Assembly (NCBI RefSeq): GCF_007988905.1
Contig: NZ_BJVA01000012.1
Span: forward strand, 1 to 64,000
Origin: Gluconobacter kanchanaburiensis NBRC 103587
Lineage (GTDB): Bacteria; Pseudomonadota; Alphaproteobacteria; Acetobacterales; Acetobacteraceae
Direction: 5' to 3'
Length of the DNA: 64,000 nt
Shown: positions 217-48,759 of the stretch, piece by piece
Position numbering within the stretch: the stretch's first letter is position 1
How the letters are laid out: every line of letters starts with the position of its first letter
Made by a program: the position numbers and the translations under genes
Notes under the pieces: generated by a model
Databases searched by the model: none
What the model was told of the DNA's origin: nothing
What the model saw: the letters and a program-made list of their open reading frames with translations, nothing else

Positions 217-885
217 TTGAACAGTCAGTCGAGCAGCCAGTCCGAAGACCGGAAACAGCCCTGCTGTGGTCGTCCCTTGCAGCTCGATGAAGCCGAAAGA
301 CGGACTCGGATCCTGGATGCGGCCAGCACCGTACTGACAACACATGGATATCATGCGACTTCGATGGATAGCATCGCGTCATGTTCAGGCATGTCCAAAA
401 AAACCCTCTATCAGTTCTTCGATTCCAAACAGGTCTTGTTTGAGACCCTGATCATCGAACGTCTTTTTGCTCCGATAGAATATGTTCCACTGTCTACTGA
501 CTCCATGGAAAAGCAGCTCTTCGGACTGATGACCAGCATTGCAGCATGCATATTTTGCGATGAACGTCTCAGCCTACTGCGCTCTGTCGTCACGGAAACC
601 AGTCGAAACCCGGCCGTGCGCCAACTGGTCGCAGACCTTTTCCAGCTCTCCGGGCGCTCTCTGCCAATCCAGAACTGGCTAACGACCCAGTCCGAAGCAG
701 GCAGGCTCGATATTCCCGATGTTCCCGAAGCGTCGGATCTGCTTTTCGGGATGACACTCGGCGGCCCCATGCTGGGACAACTCACCCATTGCAAACCCAG
801 CCGTTCACAGGAAAAGCTCGAAGAATTCATGGCATACGGAATTCGGGTTTTCCTTGAAGGTCATCGCCCCCTCCCTCAGACCTGA
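217..885 (+). CDS. TetR/AcrR family transcriptional regulator
   Basis: A DNA-binding repressor-type protein of 222 residues from this start. The N-terminal half carries a TetR helix-turn-helix: RTRILDAASTVLTTHGYHAT, then MDSIASCSGMSKKTLYQFFD. The C-terminal ligand domain contains the usual helical core ending in FLEGH. The longest frame starts with TTG at 172, but that codon lies in the T tract of the preceding terminator. A TTG at 217 has GGAG six bases upstream and is preferred. The gene ends only six bases from the end of the convergent flagellar TPR gene. Its target is unknown; no divergent partner gene shows what it controls. Confidence 0.85.
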   Translation: MNSQSSSQSEDRKQPCCGRPLQLDEAERRTRILDAASTVLTTHGYHATSMDSIASCSGMSKKTLYQFFDSKQVLFETLIIERLFAPIEYVPLSTDSMEKQLFGLMTSIAACIFCDERLSLLRSVVTETSRNPAVRQLVADLFQLSGRSLPIQNWLTTQSEAGRLDIPDVPEASDLLFGMTLGGPMLGQLTHCKPSRSQEKLEEFMAYGIRVFLEGHRPLPQT

Positions 886-9155: not shown

Positions 9156-9190
9156 AAAAAAGGGGCGCTCCACAGAGCGCCCCTTTTTTT
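9156..9190. terminator. Bidirectional terminator between ansP and the prolyl oligopeptidase
   Basis: A 9-bp GC stem (GGGGCGCTC at 9162-9170 with its complement at 9175-9183), loop of four, flanked by A6 on the left and T7 on the right. It can stop transcription from both convergent genes. Confidence 0.92.
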
Positions 9191-37434: not shown

Positions 37435-38096
37435 AAGACATATCGACGAACTGGCAACGCGGCGTCTTCGTCACGGGAACGGATACCGGCATCGGCAAGA
37501 CCCTCGTCAGCGCCATTCTGTGCCGCGCCTGGAACGCCACTTACTGGAAACCGCTCCAGACCGGCCTTGCGGACGAAGACGGCGACACACCGACCGTGCG
37601 GGATCTGGCCGGTCTGGACCCTTCCCGCATCATTCCCCCGGCCTATGCGTTTCAGGCCCCGCTCGCTCCGCTGGCGGCAGGCGATCTGGAAAACGTGACA
37701 GTCAATCCGGGGCGGCTCGTCCTGCCTCAGGTGCCGGGACCACTCGTCGTAGAAGGCGCGGGCGGCCTGATGGTCCCGGTACGTGAGGACATGATGATCG
37801 TGGATCTGATTGAAAGTCTGGGCCTGCCGGTTGTTCTGGTGACGCGCAGCGGACTGGGAACGATCAACCATACACTTCTTAGCCTTGAAGCCATGCAGCG
37901 ACGGGGCATTCCGGTAGCTGGCGTGGTGCCGGTCGGGCCGCTGAATTCCGGCAATGAACGCGATATCGTGCAGTTTGGAAAAACGCACATCCTGTTCCAG
38001 GTTCCGCATCTCGATGCGATAACAGAAACATCCGTATCCGGATTAGCATGTAACGTTCCGTTACTTGATGTCTTGCAGCAACAGATTTCACAATAA
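37431..38096 (+). CDS. bioD: Dethiobiotin synthetase BioD
   Basis: The ATP-dependent carboxylase closing the ureido ring of dethiobiotin. 221 residues. The P-loop is GVFVTGTDTGIGKTLVSAIL, the substrate lysine is in WKPLQTGL and the second conserved segment is LVVEGAGGLMVPV. A good ribosome site (GGAAGGA) precedes the start, which overlaps bioC by four bases. It is the last gene of the operon; bioB, for the final sulfur insertion, is not in this window. Confidence 0.94.
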   Translation: MKDISTNWQRGVFVTGTDTGIGKTLVSAILCRAWNATYWKPLQTGLADEDGDTPTVRDLAGLDPSRIIPPAYAFQAPLAPLAAGDLENVTVNPGRLVLPQVPGPLVVEGAGGLMVPVREDMMIVDLIESLGLPVVLVTRSGLGTINHTLLSLEAMQRRGIPVAGVVPVGPLNSGNERDIVQFGKTHILFQVPHLDAITETSVSGLACNVPLLDVLQQQISQ

Positions 38097-42913: not shown

Positions 42914-43178
42914 GGCACTCTTCTTTCCGTATACAGGACTAGTTGGCGTTTCTTTCAAAAGAAAACGACAATTAATCCAGCCTGGAACATCTTGAAGGAT
43001 GCTCCCGTGCTTCAGTAACATTCGAAAACACCAGTAGTTTCTCTCCAGAGAGTCTTTTTCCTCATGGCCGTCATGCGGGAACTTTTTCCAGATTCGGTTT
43101 TACCTATCCTGAAGGAAAGCCTGTTTTCGCATGCCAGGCCGGATTGAACAGGCATGGTTTCTGCGTCACAGTCACCCC
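42914..43178. other. Divergent intergenic region between the DUF2501 gene and ptrB
   Basis: 265 bases that must carry the promoters of two divergent genes. I see no further gene, terminator or repeat. A possible upstream ATG for ptrB lies at 43131. Confidence 0.5.
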
Positions 43179-45290
43179 ATGTCCCAGCACCCCGATGCCC
43201 CCTCCGCCACACCCGTTCCTCCCGTCGCCCGTTGTGAGCCACTGAGCACCACGCAGCTTGGCCGCACGCGCACGGATTCCTATGCGTGGATGAAGGACGA
43301 AAACTGGCAGCAGGTCCTGCGAGATCCATCCGTTCTGCGCGAAGACATCGCCACCCATCTGAAGGCGGAGAACGCTTATGCGGAAGCGGTGCTGGCCGGG
43401 ATGGAGCCACTACGCGAGACGCTACTTCAGGAAATGATCGGCCGTATTCCACCCGCGGAATCCTCGGTACCGGTTCCCGACGGCCCGTGGGAGTATTCCG
43501 TGCGCTTCGAAGACGGCGCCCAACATCCGCTAAGGGTGCGTTCCCCACGCGGTGGCGGAGCGGAGCAGGTTCTGCTCGATGCCGATGCGCTGGCCAAACA
43601 GCATGACTATTACGCGCTCTCGCAGACCGACCATTCCCCCGACCACCGCTATTTCGTCTATGCCGAGGACGTTCAGGGCTCCGAGGTCTATCGCATTCAG
43701 GTCGAGGATCTGGAAACAGGCACACTCTGTGCCGAACCCGTCCCCAGCACCACAGGCAGCTTCGCCATTTCCCCCGACAGCCAGTGGCTGTTCTGGATTT
43801 ACCGCGACGATAATGGCCGCCCTTCGAAGATCTATCGCCGCCGGCTAACGGGGGGCGAAGATGTTCTGGTGTTCGACGAAACCGATCCGGGGTTTTTCCT
43901 GAGCATCGGCGTCAGCGCTTCCCGCAAATGGATCGTCATCGAGCGCGGCGATCATGATACGAACGAAACGCTGCTCATCCCGGCTTCCGACCCGACGGCC
44001 CTGCCCGTCGTGGCAGCACCGCTGGTGCGGGGCGAGCGCTATTCCCTGACACACTGGAATGACCGCTTCATCATCCTGACCAACGCCGGTGGCGCCGTGG
44101 ACTTCCAGTTCATGCAGACGCCTGATACGGCCACGGGACGCGAGAACTGGACGCCCTTCGTGCCCTACCGTGAGGGCCACTATCTACTGGGCGCCAGTGC
44201 CTCACGCGGGCATCTCGCCTGGGCCGAGCGGCGGGACGGAAACATCCATATTCTTGTAGTGCCCGAAGGCACGCAGGGCGATGTCCGGGCGCAGGCGAAA
44301 GCCATCGGCATGGACGAGGCCGCTTATGACCTGACGATGCTGGGCACGCTGGAATATGACGCCCCGATCCTGCGCTACATCTATCAGTCCCCCACCAATC
44401 CGGCGCACTGGTACGATTACGACATGGCCAGCGGCGAGCGCACCCTCCGAAAAATCCGCGAGGTTCCGTCCGGCCATGATGCGAGCCGCTACGAGACACG
44501 TCGCCTGTTCTCAACATCGCCCGACGGAGCGCAGGTTCCGATTACCGTCCTGATGCGCAAAGGTCAGGTTCTGGACGGTTCAGCGCCCCTGCTTCTGTAT
44601 GGATATGGCTCCTACGGCATCGCCATGGACGCAGATTTCTCCACAACCGTGTTCAGCTTAGTGGACCGGGGCTGGATTCACGCCATCGCCCATGTCCGCG
44701 GCGGCTCCGAAAAGGGCTGGAACTGGTTTCTGGACGGTCGCGGGACGAAGAAGCCCAACACCTTCATCGACTTCATTGCCTGCGCCCGGCATCTCGTCTC
44801 GGAAGGCTACGGCTCAGCCGGACGCATCGTGGCGCAGGGTGGCTCGGCGGGTGGTCTGCTGATGGGTGCCATCACGAACATGGCGCCCGAGCTTTTCGCT
44901 GGCATTGCCGCGCAGGTACCGTTCGTGGACATGCTCAACACCATGTCCGACGTCTCTCTGCCGCTCACGCCGCCGGAATGGCCGGAATGGGGCAACCCAC
45001 TGGAAGACCCGGCCGCGTATGACCTGATCGCCAGCTATTCGCCCTATGACAACATCGCCGCCAAGGCCTATCCGCCGGTTCTGGCGATGGGTGGTCTGTC
45101 CGATCCGCGCGTGACGTACTGGGAACCCGCGAAATGGATCGCCAAACTGCGCGAAGTCACGTCCGGCGGCCCGTTCCTGTGCCGCATCAACATGGAAGCC
45201 GGCCACGGCGGCTCGTCTGGCCGTTTCAAACGTCTGGAAGAAGTCGCCCTCGTTCAGGCCTTCGCCATCTGGGCCATCAACCGGGCCTGA
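43179..45290 (+). CDS. ptrB: Oligopeptidase B (S9A serine peptidase)
   Basis: A cytosolic peptidase cleaving short peptides after Arg/Lys. 703 residues, no signal peptide. N-terminal propeller: DSYAWMKDENWQQVLRDP and YYALSQTDHSPDHRYFVYAE. Catalytic domain: Ser in VAQGGSAGGLLMGA, Asp in GGLSDPRVTYWEP and His in MEAGHGGSSGRF. The GGSAGG elbow and the acidic residues around the catalytic cleft fit oligopeptidase B rather than prolyl oligopeptidase. A start at 43131 would add 16 residues and has AAGGAAAG upstream; neither is decisive. It ends at the three-armed inverted repeat. Confidence 0.88.
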   Translation: MSQHPDAPSATPVPPVARCEPLSTTQLGRTRTDSYAWMKDENWQQVLRDPSVLREDIATHLKAENAYAEAVLAGMEPLRETLLQEMIGRIPPAESSVPVPDGPWEYSVRFEDGAQHPLRVRSPRGGGAEQVLLDADALAKQHDYYALSQTDHSPDHRYFVYAEDVQGSEVYRIQVEDLETGTLCAEPVPSTTGSFAISPDSQWLFWIYRDDNGRPSKIYRRRLTGGEDVLVFDETDPGFFLSIGVSASRKWIVIERGDHDTNETLLIPASDPTALPVVAAPLVRGERYSLTHWNDRFIILTNAGGAVDFQFMQTPDTATGRENWTPFVPYREGHYLLGASASRGHLAWAERRDGNIHILVVPEGTQGDVRAQAKAIGMDEAAYDLTMLGTLEYDAPILRYIYQSPTNPAHWYDYDMASGERTLRKIREVPSGHDASRYETRRLFSTSPDGAQVPITVLMRKGQVLDGSAPLLLYGYGSYGIAMDADFSTTVFSLVDRGWIHAIAHVRGGSEKGWNWFLDGRGTKKPNTFIDFIACARHLVSEGYGSAGRIVAQGGSAGGLLMGAITNMAPELFAGIAAQVPFVDMLNTMSDVSLPLTPPEWPEWGNPLEDPAAYDLIASYSPYDNIAAKAYPPVLAMGGLSDPRVTYWEPAKWIAKLREVTSGGPFLCRINMEAGHGGSSGRFKRLEEVALVQAFAIWAINRA

Positions 45291-45301
45291 AAAGACCAGA
45301 C

Positions 45302-45390
45302 GAATAAAAGTTTTTGGGTTCCGCCTTTTTTCAAAAAAGGCGGAGAGCATCGAAGCTTTTTGAAAAAAGCTTCACCAAAAACTTTTATTC
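45302..45390. terminator. Three-armed inverted repeat, probable bidirectional terminator
   Basis: A perfect 16-bp outer stem (45302-45317 with 45375-45390, GAATAAAAGTTTTTGG and its complement) encloses two further perfect hairpins: CCGCCTTTTTT/AAAAAAGGCGG at 45321-45343 and GAAGCTTTTT/AAAAAGCTTC at 45352-45373. The transcript of either strand can fold into a three-way junction, and each arm carries A or T runs. It lies exactly between convergent ptrB and the efflux adaptor gene, so it can end both. Confidence 0.85.
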
Positions 45391-45398
45391 CAGAGCGC

Positions 45399-46349
45399 TT
45401 ACCTATGTCCGAACAGATGCCGGATGTCGTCGCCAAAATGCTGGAAGGCGGCGTGGGTGGAGCGGTGACGGCGGTTGCCTTCCTCTGACACGACGGTCAC
45501 GGTGGCGGTCATGCCGGCGGCCAGGGTCAGATCATCGGGGATCTTGTCGATCTTCACGCGCACCGGGATACGCTGCGCCAGACGCACCCAAGTATAAACC
45601 GGATCGATGGTCGGCAGACCCTGCTTGTTCACGAGAGCATTGTTGGTGGCGATGCCGCGGGTGATGCTCTCGACATGGCCGAAGAGCGGATCGTGATAGC
45701 CCATCAGATCCATACGGACGAGATCCCCCTCGTCGAGGTCATGGACCTTGGTTTCCTCGAAATAGCCGTCCACCCAATAGGAACTAGTGTCGATAATATG
45801 GATGTTGACCACACCAGCGGTTGCGAAATCGCCTGGACGCATGATGAGGTTGGTCACGATGCCGTCGATGGAACTGCGGACTTCCGTTCGCTCCAGATTG
45901 ATCGCTGCCTGACGTTCTGCAGCCTGCGCCGCATCGTACTGGGCCTGCATCTGCTGGGACAGAGCCTCAAACTGCCTCTTTTCCTCGACCGAGACGGCCG
46001 TGCCGGGGATGGCTTTACGCCACTGGGCCTGAACAACACGGAACTCCAAGTCGGCCTTGCGTTCGGCCACACGTGCTTTAGCAGTATCGAGCGCCACCTT
46101 GAAGTCGAACGGATCAATGACGTAAAGCACGTCACCTTTGTGGACGAACTGGTTGTCCTTCACCCGTACATCAAGAATCTGTCCCGAAACACGTGGTGCG
46201 ATATTGGCGACCTGCACACGGACCTGTCCGTTCCGAGTCCAGGGAGAGGCCGTGTAGTAGTCCCACAGGATGACGACCACGAGCGCCGCCACCACGAGAA
46301 TGCATAGCGTGATGGTAAAGCGGATCAGGCGATGGGCACTGGAAAGCAC
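45399..46349 (-). CDS. aaeA: Efflux membrane fusion protein, AaeA-like (HlyD family)
   Basis: The periplasmic adaptor of an aromatic-acid efflux pump, 316 residues. GTG start. One N-terminal membrane helix (FTITLCILVVAALVVVILWD), then WTRNGQVRVQVANIAPRVSG and LDVRVKDNQFVHKGDVLYVI of the barrel-sandwich hybrid, a short coiled-coil hairpin and RSSIDGIVTNLIMRPGDFAT. It is the last gene of aaeB-aaeX-aaeA. Substrates are likely hydroxylated aromatic or other weak acids. Confidence 0.87.
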   Translation of the reverse strand: MLSSAHRLIRFTITLCILVVAALVVVILWDYYTASPWTRNGQVRVQVANIAPRVSGQILDVRVKDNQFVHKGDVLYVIDPFDFKVALDTAKARVAERKADLEFRVVQAQWRKAIPGTAVSVEEKRQFEALSQQMQAQYDAAQAAERQAAINLERTEVRSSIDGIVTNLIMRPGDFATAGVVNIHIIDTSSYWVDGYFEETKVHDLDEGDLVRMDLMGYHDPLFGHVESITRGIATNNALVNKQGLPTIDPVYTWVRLAQRIPVRVKIDKIPDDLTLAAGMTATVTVVSEEGNRRHRSTHAAFQHFGDDIRHLFGHR

Positions 46350-46387
46350 GGGACGGTCACCTTGGTTTTATTCAAAACAAAAGAGGA

Positions 46388-46588
46388 TCAGAGGATCAGG
46401 GTGTAAAGGCCGATCAGGCAGATCAGGATGCCGAACTGGGCCAGGGGCGGATCCCAGACGAAACGCCACAGATCGAACCAGCCCATGATCCAGCGCAGGA
46501 TGGCCAGCGTCAGAAGCGCCAGCGCCAGATTGATCACGAAAGCCGAGACCAGCACGCCATCGAGATCGACAACCTGTGTCATCACCAT
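46388..46588 (-). CDS. aaeX: AaeX-like small membrane protein (DUF1656)
   Basis: 66 residues with two membrane helices: LVSAFVINLALALLTLAILR and PPLAQFGILICLIGLYTLIL. This is the DUF1656/AaeX pattern, always found between the FUSC pump gene and the adaptor gene. It overlaps the pump gene by seven bases if the first ATG is used, or starts at the stop codon if MTQVVD (46582) is used. Probably an accessory subunit of the pump. Confidence 0.85.
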   Translation of the reverse strand: MVMTQVVDLDGVLVSAFVINLALALLTLAILRWIMGWFDLWRFVWDPPLAQFGILICLIGLYTLIL

Positions 46589-48591
46589 CGTTTGCGTCCT
46601 ATCCCGTAGTGATGCACGGCGGAGCGGTTCAGACGCACCATGGTCCGGACGGCTTCAAGACCACCGATACAGTTGATGATCATGGACTGTTCCTCGCGGA
46701 TTCCATCGGACAGCCGTTCGAAGAACATGGCCTGAAGTTCCGGGATCTCGGCTTCCAGAAGGCCAAGCCGATCATGGGCCAGCAGCCGCCGGACATGGCG
46801 GACCATTGGTTTGAGGCCATGGAGATGCCCCGCCTGATCCAGATAATGTCGCACGCGCGCAATCGTGCTGGAAAAATCCTCCAGCGCCACGAAACGGTTG
46901 AACACACGCCGAGAGCGCAGGCCAGGCTCCTTCATCCGCTCCGTCCACATCAGGAACTGGCTGAGACGCTCATATTTCCGGCTGAGCAACGGCGGCCCCA
47001 TCCTCTCGCCATGTCCGGCGAGCTGGGTTTCCAGATCGTAGGCGATGGACACCGCCAGCCTGAAACGGTGCCGCCGCGCCGTAGGAGGCCACAGCAGAAC
47101 CAGCAACACGAAAGACAGAACGGCAGCCATCGCATAGAACGTGTTGCGTGTAATGAAGGCCATCGGATCGTAGTTGTGATGATTTCCCAGCCCGATGAAG
47201 ACCAGAAAGAAGACGCCGTAATTAAAGCCAATGGCGCTGGTTTTCGGGTTCATCAGCAGCAGGCAGGAGATGATGGTCTGCGGCAGGAGTACGAGGGCAA
47301 GGCTCAGCATGCTGCCCACATGTGGCAGAATCATGAAGTCCAGCCATGCCGCAACGAGAATGCCCGCGGGCATTCCGATAATGGCCCCCTTGCCGAACTC
47401 CGCCGTATCGATGGCCGTGGAAGCCAGCGTCAGCACGAGTGCGGTCTGGGACAGGGCCGTGACAGAAGCAGGGATACTCGTCGCCAGACACAGCGCTGCG
47501 GCAACACTGAAACCCAGAAGCACGCGAATCGCGTTGATGAACGCCGTCACATAATCCGGATTGCTCTCGAGATGGGCCAGCTTGAGTGCATCGCCCGCCG
47601 GGGTAGCACGCAGGAGCGTGTTCATGCCCGTGCGGATATGCAGACGGTTGCTGAGAAGCGTGGAGCACCGTTCCAGAAACCAGGCTTCACGCGCGGAGGG
47701 AACAAAGTCCGGATCTTCCGCGCGGATGTCATCCAGAATCGTGTCCATGGTCTCAAGCCGGGTCGTGCCGTCCTCGGACCGTTCATGCCAGGCCCGGACA
47801 TGACGGATCAGGATGTCGGAAATACCGCCCGTTTCCAAAAGCCACGCGATCGCACGGCTCGTGGTCAGGACGGTCAGCATACCAATAATGCCCAGCCTTG
47901 CTCCCGCCATCCGCAGACGCCCGCGCTCGACTTCGGTCCGGGCGTAGGAAATCTGGGTCATGAGCGCAAGAATTTCGCCACTCAAACCGATCATCTGCTC
48001 GGGAGTCGCAATCGGCTCGCCCATGATGGCGGATTTTCCGGTCTGCCGCACGCGATGCGACAGCGTCTCCATGGCCTTGGACAGACGTCGCCAGGCCTCG
48101 GGTGATCCGGACAGGATATTGACGACCGCGATCGAGGCCACGCCAATGGCAATATCAGAGGCACGGGCGATGCTGACAGGGTAGATATTCTGCGGATCGT
48201 CCATCGTGGGGATGGCGACGAGAGCAACAGTATATCCCGCCAGCAGCGCGCCGTAGGAGCGGAAATCTCGCTCCAGCGAACCTACAAACGCACAGGCCGC
48301 GATCCACAGGGCAGCACCCCCGAGCGACAGGGCGCGTTCCTGATTGAACAGGGCAACGAGAATGATGGAAACACTGACACCGAGCACGGTCCCCGCCAGG
48401 CGGTAGAAGGCCTTGGAGAGAGCCTGACCACGCAGGGGCTGGGCCAGGATCATGACTGTCACGCCGGCACTAGCGGGGGAGTCAAGCTGGGACCAGAACG
48501 CCGTTCCAAGCGCCAGGACAAGTGCACACCATGTCCTGAGACTGAACTGGAGCCAGCCGGGGCGGAAAACTGATTGTAGTGCCGCAGTCAA
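46582..48591 (-). CDS. aaeB: FUSC-family efflux transporter, AaeB-like
   Basis: A 669-residue inner-membrane pump with two blocks of membrane helices (N-terminal SLRTWCALVLALGTAFWSQL, VTVMILAQPLRGQALSKAFY; second block LLGFSVAAALCLATSIPASV) and two cytoplasmic regions, the FUSC/AaeB layout. Known members export p-hydroxybenzoate-type acids. The TTG start has GGGGAG eight bases upstream. It leads the operon with the DUF1656 and adaptor genes; no LysR regulator (AaeR) lies beside it. Confidence 0.87.
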   Translation of the reverse strand: MTAALQSVFRPGWLQFSLRTWCALVLALGTAFWSQLDSPASAGVTVMILAQPLRGQALSKAFYRLAGTVLGVSVSIILVALFNQERALSLGGAALWIAACAFVGSLERDFRSYGALLAGYTVALVAIPTMDDPQNIYPVSIARASDIAIGVASIAVVNILSGSPEAWRRLSKAMETLSHRVRQTGKSAIMGEPIATPEQMIGLSGEILALMTQISYARTEVERGRLRMAGARLGIIGMLTVLTTSRAIAWLLETGGISDILIRHVRAWHERSEDGTTRLETMDTILDDIRAEDPDFVPSAREAWFLERCSTLLSNRLHIRTGMNTLLRATPAGDALKLAHLESNPDYVTAFINAIRVLLGFSVAAALCLATSIPASVTALSQTALVLTLASTAIDTAEFGKGAIIGMPAGILVAAWLDFMILPHVGSMLSLALVLLPQTIISCLLLMNPKTSAIGFNYGVFFLVFIGLGNHHNYDPMAFITRNTFYAMAAVLSFVLLVLLWPPTARRHRFRLAVSIAYDLETQLAGHGERMGPPLLSRKYERLSQFLMWTERMKEPGLRSRRVFNRFVALEDFSSTIARVRHYLDQAGHLHGLKPMVRHVRRLLAHDRLGLLEAEIPELQAMFFERLSDGIREEQSMIINCIGGLEAVRTMVRLNRSAVHHYGIGRKRW

Positions 48592-48759
48592 GAGCCATGC
48601 TCCCCACCCTGCACAGACATCACCGGAAACAGTTCCACGGCTCTCATTACCAGAATCAGACAGGTAACCTTAGGAGCGCTCTCGCGGAAAAGTTAGCCCT
48701 CGCGTTCTCCGGACATGTTTTGAAAGGAAGTTTCAGGCCTCAGCCGAGCGACGGCAGTG
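48592..48759. other. Intergenic region upstream of the efflux operon
   Basis: 168 bases between the start of aaeB and the end of the next minus-strand gene. No gene or clear hairpin is seen. It should hold the aaeB promoter. Confidence 0.45.

Follow-up and report, generated by a model that had tools for sequence, protein, structure and literature searches.

A tagged, REP-like inverted doublet of the Acetobacteraceae that probably inverts in place behind gene ends

Two convergent genes of Gluconobacter kanchanaburiensis NBRC 103587, one ptrB-like and one aaeA-like, are separated by 108 bp, and 89 of these are occupied by a perfect inverted repeat that encloses two further perfect hairpins. What kind of element is this, and why does it stand between two gene ends? 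A preliminary description of the window, by which we mean the whole stretch of 64,000 nucleotides that was analysed, held that transcripts from both sides would meet a terminator here, and it suggested a dispersed repeat family. Here, we compared the element with its copies in the same genome, in the genus and in the family. The element is probably an inverted doublet of a tagged, REP-like repeat family of the Acetobacteraceae, which flips in situ and is kept behind gene ends.

The element spans 45302-45390, and its structure is as first described: a perfect 16-bp outer inverted repeat, whose arms have a complementarity of 100% and a separation of 57 nt, with two perfect hairpins inside. The convergent neighbours were also recognized correctly. 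The predicted folds of segment 45290-45405 bear out the three-way junction that had been expected, both for DNA (-32 kcal/mol, z -7.76) and for RNA (-43.3 kcal/mol, z -6.85), and in each case none of 200 shuffles was as low. Two places in the window have perfect arms of 12 nt or more around a spacer of 40-90 nt, compared with 7 places in total in 30 first-order Markov windows. By themselves, outer arms of 12 nt are thus not unusual; the rare feature is the combination of 16-nt arms with two inner hairpins. The second long-armed place, 37555-37618, is G+C-rich and has no perfect hairpin. A chance palindrome was rejected on the fold energies against shuffles and on the arm counts against Markov windows. 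A known Rfam RNA was rejected as well: the window has no match at the curated score, and in seven loci just two miRNA models overlap the element, both far below their cut-offs.

Table 1 Features of the element, its neighbours and related copies.
Feature	Position	Strand	Remarks
ptrB-like prolyl oligopeptidase (Peptidase_S9)	43131..45290	+	3' end 11 bp from element
Left outer arm GAATAAAAGTTTTTGG	45302..45317	.	16 nt; contains tag AAAAGTTTTTGG of first half-module, nearly invariant in 25 aligned relatives
Hairpin 1, CCGCC type, T-run/A-run apex	45320..45344	.	Arms 12 nt, loop 1 nt; 6/11 stem pairs changed on both sides (25 relatives)
Spacer joining the two half-modules	45345..45351	.	Length varies among relatives
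Hairpin 2, GAAGC type, T-run/A-run apex	45352..45373	.	Arms 10 nt, loop 2 nt; 5/10 pairs changed on both sides
Right outer arm CCAAAAACTTTTATTC	45375..45390	.	16 nt; contains tag of second half-module, inverted
aaeA-like HlyD-type membrane fusion protein	45399..46349	-	3' end 8 bp from element
Site 0, this genome			EPSP-synthase-family gene / mannitol dehydrogenase
Site 1, this genome			UPF0093 / short-chain dehydrogenase
Site 2, this genome			The window's ptrB-like / aaeA-like pair
Site 3, this genome			Nitroreductase / helicase
160-162 bp units	L262:1167-1328; L167:547-708; L184, L191, L208, L215		Terminal inverted repeats

The suggestion of a dispersed family was confirmed at each level. 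The genome of the window has four copies of the element. In Gluconobacter, matches were found in 15 of 26 genomes, 14 of them with full copies and one (G023) with a weak half-match. Of the 47 loci examined in the genus, 44 could be parsed and were assigned to four orthologous sites (14, 14, 11 and 5 copies); the three others, which were omitted from the table of orientations, are L018 (the half copy of G023), L046 (degenerate) and L047 (one hairpin lost). In L047:1501-1542, on the site 3 flank of genome G005, most of one hairpin has been lost and a single hairpin is left between two tags. In genome G009, ptrB and the degenerate copy (L050 / L046) are about 1.1 kb apart, and the intervening DNA is A+T-rich in the part inspected. 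Across the family, the window's form of the element matched 78 of 299 genomes and 30 of 102 genera, many of the matches spanning merely 33-39 bases. The form found in genome G316 matched 107 of 299 genomes of a draw from the order, all within Acetobacteraceae, but this draw says little on other families because the non-matching genomes listed are also Acetobacteraceae. G316 itself has the repeat at 40 distinct places, four of them partial, from 40 scored candidates of 516 (476 first-look candidates were left unscored), so that a figure of 'hundreds' of copies could only be extrapolated.

At least 128 exact copies of a 34-base half of the element are present, in at least 120 stretches. The genera among the matches listed are Komagataeibacter, Novacetimonas, Gluconacetobacter, Acetobacter and Gluconobacter, joined by three stretches with Bacteroidota titles (Alistipes or Rikenellaceae; L159:191-224, L173:6923-6956 and L210:884-917). 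These three are mutually alike over about 215-250 bp around the half-copy, and the two that were measured have about 47% G+C. The window's form matched five plasmids of Komagataeibacter/Novacetimonas, and the G316 form matched no plasmid. As for signs of a phage repeat, an exact 31-base pattern was unmatched in viral contigs and one Komagataeibacter-type copy was unmatched in a phage collection. The repeat was not found described in the open papers that were searched.

As read from the alignments, the unit of the family is the tag AAAAGTTTTTGG followed by a hairpin with a T-run/A-run apex, and it occurs singly and as inverted doublets. Scripted parsing of 120 loci, among the matches listed, gave 105 single and 63 doublet tagged hairpins, many of the scripted singles being doublets with a decayed partner. 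In aligned relatives, most of AAAAGTTTTTG, the T-runs and A-runs of the apices, and CAAAAACTTTT are conserved, while the hairpin stems vary. This variation is compensatory in the stems of both hairpins. In an alignment of 25 relatives, 11 of 33 pairs changed on both sides, with 45 cells against 12.2 in shuffles, and neither number was reached by any of 500 shuffles. The covariation score was 0.179 compared with 0.069 in shuffles, none of 500 reaching the observed value, and it fell to about 0.06 when the partners were shifted by one column. For the count of further pair types, 28 of the 500 shuffles reached the observed value. For one stem type, this alignment is shifted by one column in hairpin 2. 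It is nevertheless a fairer test than an earlier covariation count, which used hairpins picked for pairing and thus shows letter variety only. All of the covariation support comes from the two hairpins, since 0 of 12 pairs of the outer arm changed on both sides. The two tags are complementary and so can pair to form the third arm, which we argue from this complementarity and not from covariation; the outer arm varies too little to tell.

The copies are found close to the ends of genes. Gene context was called with a homemade gene caller, an improved version of which replaced a cruder first one. Among the matches listed, 125 exact half-copies in named loci are placed in convergent gaps (78), in same-direction gaps (32), in divergent gaps (3), inside a gene (1) and at a locus edge (11), and the median distance from a half-copy to the nearest gene 3' end is 17 bp. 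The other gaps of these loci comprise 58 convergent, 329 same-direction and 114 divergent ones. Fisher tests gave an excess of convergent gaps (p 3e-34) and a deficit of divergent gaps (p 2e-8), where the comparison is with other gaps of loci fetched for holding an element, and where inside and edge copies (12 of 125) were dropped. The 44 parsed Gluconobacter copies lie in convergent (38) or same-direction gaps (6). In G316, 30 copies comprise 8 convergent, 16 same-direction, 0 divergent, 4 inside and 2 edge placements by the improved caller. The first caller gave 73 convergent, 34 same-direction, 4 divergent, 0 inside and 14 edge for the named loci, and 3, 18, 6, 2 and 1, respectively, for the 30 copies of G316; it placed 43 of the 44 Gluconobacter copies, and the improved caller placed all 44. 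The three Bacteroidota loci were omitted from these counts and kept in that of single and doublet forms. Near the copy in L080 (genome G165), there are a SAM_alpha riboswitch (306-386, minus strand) and a tRNA (534-604, plus strand).

This position raises the question of the terminator. The simplest explanation would be an ordinary local bidirectional transcription terminator, whose symmetry merely serves two convergent genes. The genes are only 108 bp apart, the hairpins and A/T runs between them resemble a bidirectional intrinsic terminator, and five folded genomes without the element carry other hairpins behind ptrB. A standard terminator is present within 150 bp of just 7 of 125 copies among the matches listed and of 0 of 44 in Gluconobacter, which is also on the side of this explanation; for comparison, one is present in 5 of 36 convergent gaps without the element. 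However, the element does not have the standard form, in which a G+C-rich hairpin is directly followed by a T run, and no hairpin with a T run was called as a terminator in 43000-48600. Furthermore, copies occur in many places and genera, and the tag and the T/A-run apex are kept across genera while the stem letters change, which exceeds what a terminator needs. We consider this explanation improbable, and a purely local terminator was rejected on the copies elsewhere in the genome, the genus and the family. The expectation that both transcripts end here therefore stands in part: the position fits, with most Gluconobacter copies between convergent genes, and the hairpin-plus-T-run terminator was not found. 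A role at transcript ends is plausible for the element, given its position and the other hairpins behind ptrB in the five genomes that lack it. In the part of an RNAseq paper on G. oxydans 621H that was available (PMC5756330), the words 'repeat', 'palindrom' and 'hairpin' are absent. Elsewhere in the window, at 9156-9189, there is a classic two-way terminator-like hairpin with a perfect 15-bp stem (AAAAAAGGGGCGCTC/GAGCGCCCCTTTTTT), which is unlike the element.

A dispersed, tagged family is better compared with REPs and REPINs. As these are described in the available parts of two papers (PMC3733652, PMC8049555), the likeness includes a unit of tag and hairpin, single copies and inverted doublets, high copy number in some genomes, and a place near gene 3' ends, in convergent or same-direction gaps. 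The family likewise consists of short, end-tagged palindromes in many intergenic copies, with head-to-head doublets, and its placement behind gene 3' ends with avoidance of divergent gaps equals that reported for REPs in the survey of GTAG and CGTC repeats, as far as its text was available (PMC3733652). In contrast to REPs and REPINs, the tag AAAAGTTTTTGG is long enough to pair as a third arm. In the 44 parsed Gluconobacter copies, GTAG or CTAC is found nowhere, and neither CGTC in the first nor GACG in the last 20 bases. The available part of the survey states that CGTC repeats are missing in Acetobacteraceae (PMC3733652). The Y1/RAYT transposase (PF01797) is absent from five of six carrier genomes, including that of the window, and present in G165 only; a RAYT-borne REPIN as it stands was rejected for this reason. 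No transposase could be linked to the copies. By its sequence and placement, the element works like a REP doublet, yet without the GTAG or CGTC tag that defines the described REP superfamilies.

In Komagataeibacter/Novacetimonas, the core was also found inside six units of 160-162 bp, between terminal inverted repeats like GAGACTGTTTGAAAA and TTTTCAAACAGTCTC, with at most 2 mismatches each; in two of the six (L167, L262), TAA flanks the unit on both sides. These units resemble what we take to be a MITE of the IS5/IS1031 type. The element could then be a MITE or a remnant of one, mobilized by an IS transposase in trans and retaining the core as cargo. This does not agree well with the other copies. 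The four copies of the window's genome align with the core alone (within 39-119 of 173), and neither IS terminal inverted repeats nor a target duplication was found for them. In the G316 copies inspected, no such ends are present, and the repeat stops with the outer arms, beyond which the flanks look unique. Moreover, the positions in Gluconobacter are orthologous. An origin of this kind is unlikely, though it keeps some weight, and we return to the REP-like doublet.

The orthologous positions allow the orientation of the doublet to be compared between species, a point that goes beyond the preliminary description. The alignments show the doublet both ways round at one and the same site: the CCGCC-type hairpin (TCGCC at site 1) is on the left in some species and on the right in others. 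The two orientations are found in ratios of 7:7 at site 0, 6:8 at site 1, 7:4 at site 2 and 5:0 at site 3, the label of L010 having been set by eye. Both flanks are homologous in 121 of 125 pairs of opposite orientation (49 of 49 pairs at site 0, 48 of 48 at site 1 and 24 of 28 at site 2), and the homology usually stops only a few bases short of the arms. The four exceptions all involve G018 at site 2, where the aaeA side alone matches. The element is 93-96% identical between species, compared with 69-75% for the 13 bases outside each arm, a flank figure that is lowered by counting without gaps. At site 1, five copies (L041, L042, L043, L044 and L045), all in orientation B, have about 16 extra spacer bases between the hairpins, and the other three B copies do not.

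The fewest orientation changes were 6+3+3+0 on local flank trees, with a very long branch for G018 in that of site 2, and 5+5+2+0 on the ptrB tree, which amounts to about 12 flips. When the labels were shuffled on the flank trees, the mean numbers of changes were 5.0, 4.8 and 3.5, and 96%, 8% and 41% of the shuffles, respectively, had no more changes than observed, so that descent has left little or no trace in the orientation. No flip was seen at site 3 in 5 genomes, and its arms are shorter; this fits a model in which the doublet folds out, but 5 genomes are too few. Outside Gluconobacter, in Komagataeibacter and its relatives, five flipped pairs were identified by eye (L126/L151, L111/L197, L118/L114, L130/L155 and L205/L175). 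Of the locus pairs compared by script, mainly outside the genus, 18 were labelled 'same', 8 'flip' and 4 'empty or degenerate'; these labels refer to pairs and not to sites, one flip and one same are from Gluconobacter, and L107/L128 and L139/L170 are uncertain because their flanks are poorly aligned. Two strains of K. saccharivorans have the same orientation at the one plasmid site compared. An assembly error is unlikely as the cause of the flips, because the arms are shorter than the usual word lengths of assembly and the flip loci are otherwise alike.

An alternative to inversion in place is that the opposite orientations arose when copies were inserted independently, or when they were exchanged with copies elsewhere or with those of other species. 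The arms are common to all copies, and ectopic exchange through them, in either orientation, is conceivable. Against this, both flanks are homologous in nearly all opposite pairs, and the dozen or so events are required even on trees made from the flanks themselves. A hairpin of site 1, GTCGCC..GGTGAC, which is unseen at the other three sites, is present in both orientations, so the site 1 copy was not replaced from these sites. Exchange or repeated insertion therefore seems highly improbable, and inversion of the doublet in place is retained.

The limits of the inverted piece were sought by comparing genomes of opposite orientation, with positions counted outward from the AG of the tag. At site 0, variants at the ends of the arms (positions 4, 6 and 7) move with the doublet by 26 pair-votes to 4. 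Farther out, the flanks stay in place, by 49 to 0 at positions 9 and 13 and by 30 to 0 at position 11; the exceptions are position 8, with 4 to 5, and position 15, with 6 to 3 the opposite way. Site 1 favours neither reading, with 1 to 1 at position 5 and 8 to 10 at position 7, and site 2 was uninformative. Most of the votes were contributed by five marker genomes at site 0, and they are not independent of one another. At site 0, the inverted piece thus seems to include the whole outer stem.

This bears on a phase-variable switch (inverton), in which a dedicated site-specific recombinase would act on the outer arms. An asymmetric interior between inverted arms does occur both ways round, and orientation does differ between genomes. 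However, none of the eight genes adjoining the four copies of this genome is a recombinase, the inverted segment of site 0 seems to extend to the ends of the arms, and the enzyme would also be required for the many dissimilar copies of other genera. Such a switch is very unlikely. A known parallel is provided by chloroplast genomes, in which small 'flip-flop' inversions of hairpin loops have been reported (PMC6824564). There, as far as the text was available, a segment bounded by inverted repeats also occurs in either orientation among related species and has changed repeatedly along the tree, and the inversions concern single hairpin loops of 4-24 bp at scattered places (PMC6824564). In contrast, the element belongs to a bacterial repeat family, has a 57-bp interior with two hairpins, and at one site its arms seem to move too.

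For the doublet flipping in situ, we propose the following course. In single-stranded or supercoiled DNA, the doublet would fold as one unit, as a hairpin or a cruciform. At the foot of the outer stem, the folded doublet could then be re-joined in reverse, by resolution of the cruciform, or copied in reverse, by a template switch at the replication fork. It would stay behind gene ends because its near-symmetric RNA structure may protect or end both transcripts in either orientation, and flips would for the same reason be tolerated. The dispersal, the single and doublet forms, the compensation in the stems, the location at 3' ends and the two orientations with homologous flanks are all properties of the sequences themselves.

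More tentatively, and with somewhat less than even confidence, the family may represent a third kind of tagged bacterial palindrome, so far of Acetobacteraceae, that inverts without a dedicated enzyme because its doublets extrude as three-armed cruciforms in vivo and are joined again at the foot of the outer stem. If so, orientation would be a fast and near-random character, perhaps variable within a population, and with each flip the convergent gene that had ended in the stronger hairpin would come to end in the weaker one, and vice versa. In living bacteria, the extrusion of cruciforms is difficult to observe. If the doublets flip by this route, their orientations at orthologous sites would be a ready-made natural record of it. 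The family would also fill a gap, occupying the gene-end niche of REPs in Acetobacteraceae with another tag and, in five of six carriers, without a Y1/RAYT transposase. In industrial acetic acid bacteria, the repeats mark gene ends, and they may serve as two-way transcript-end parts.
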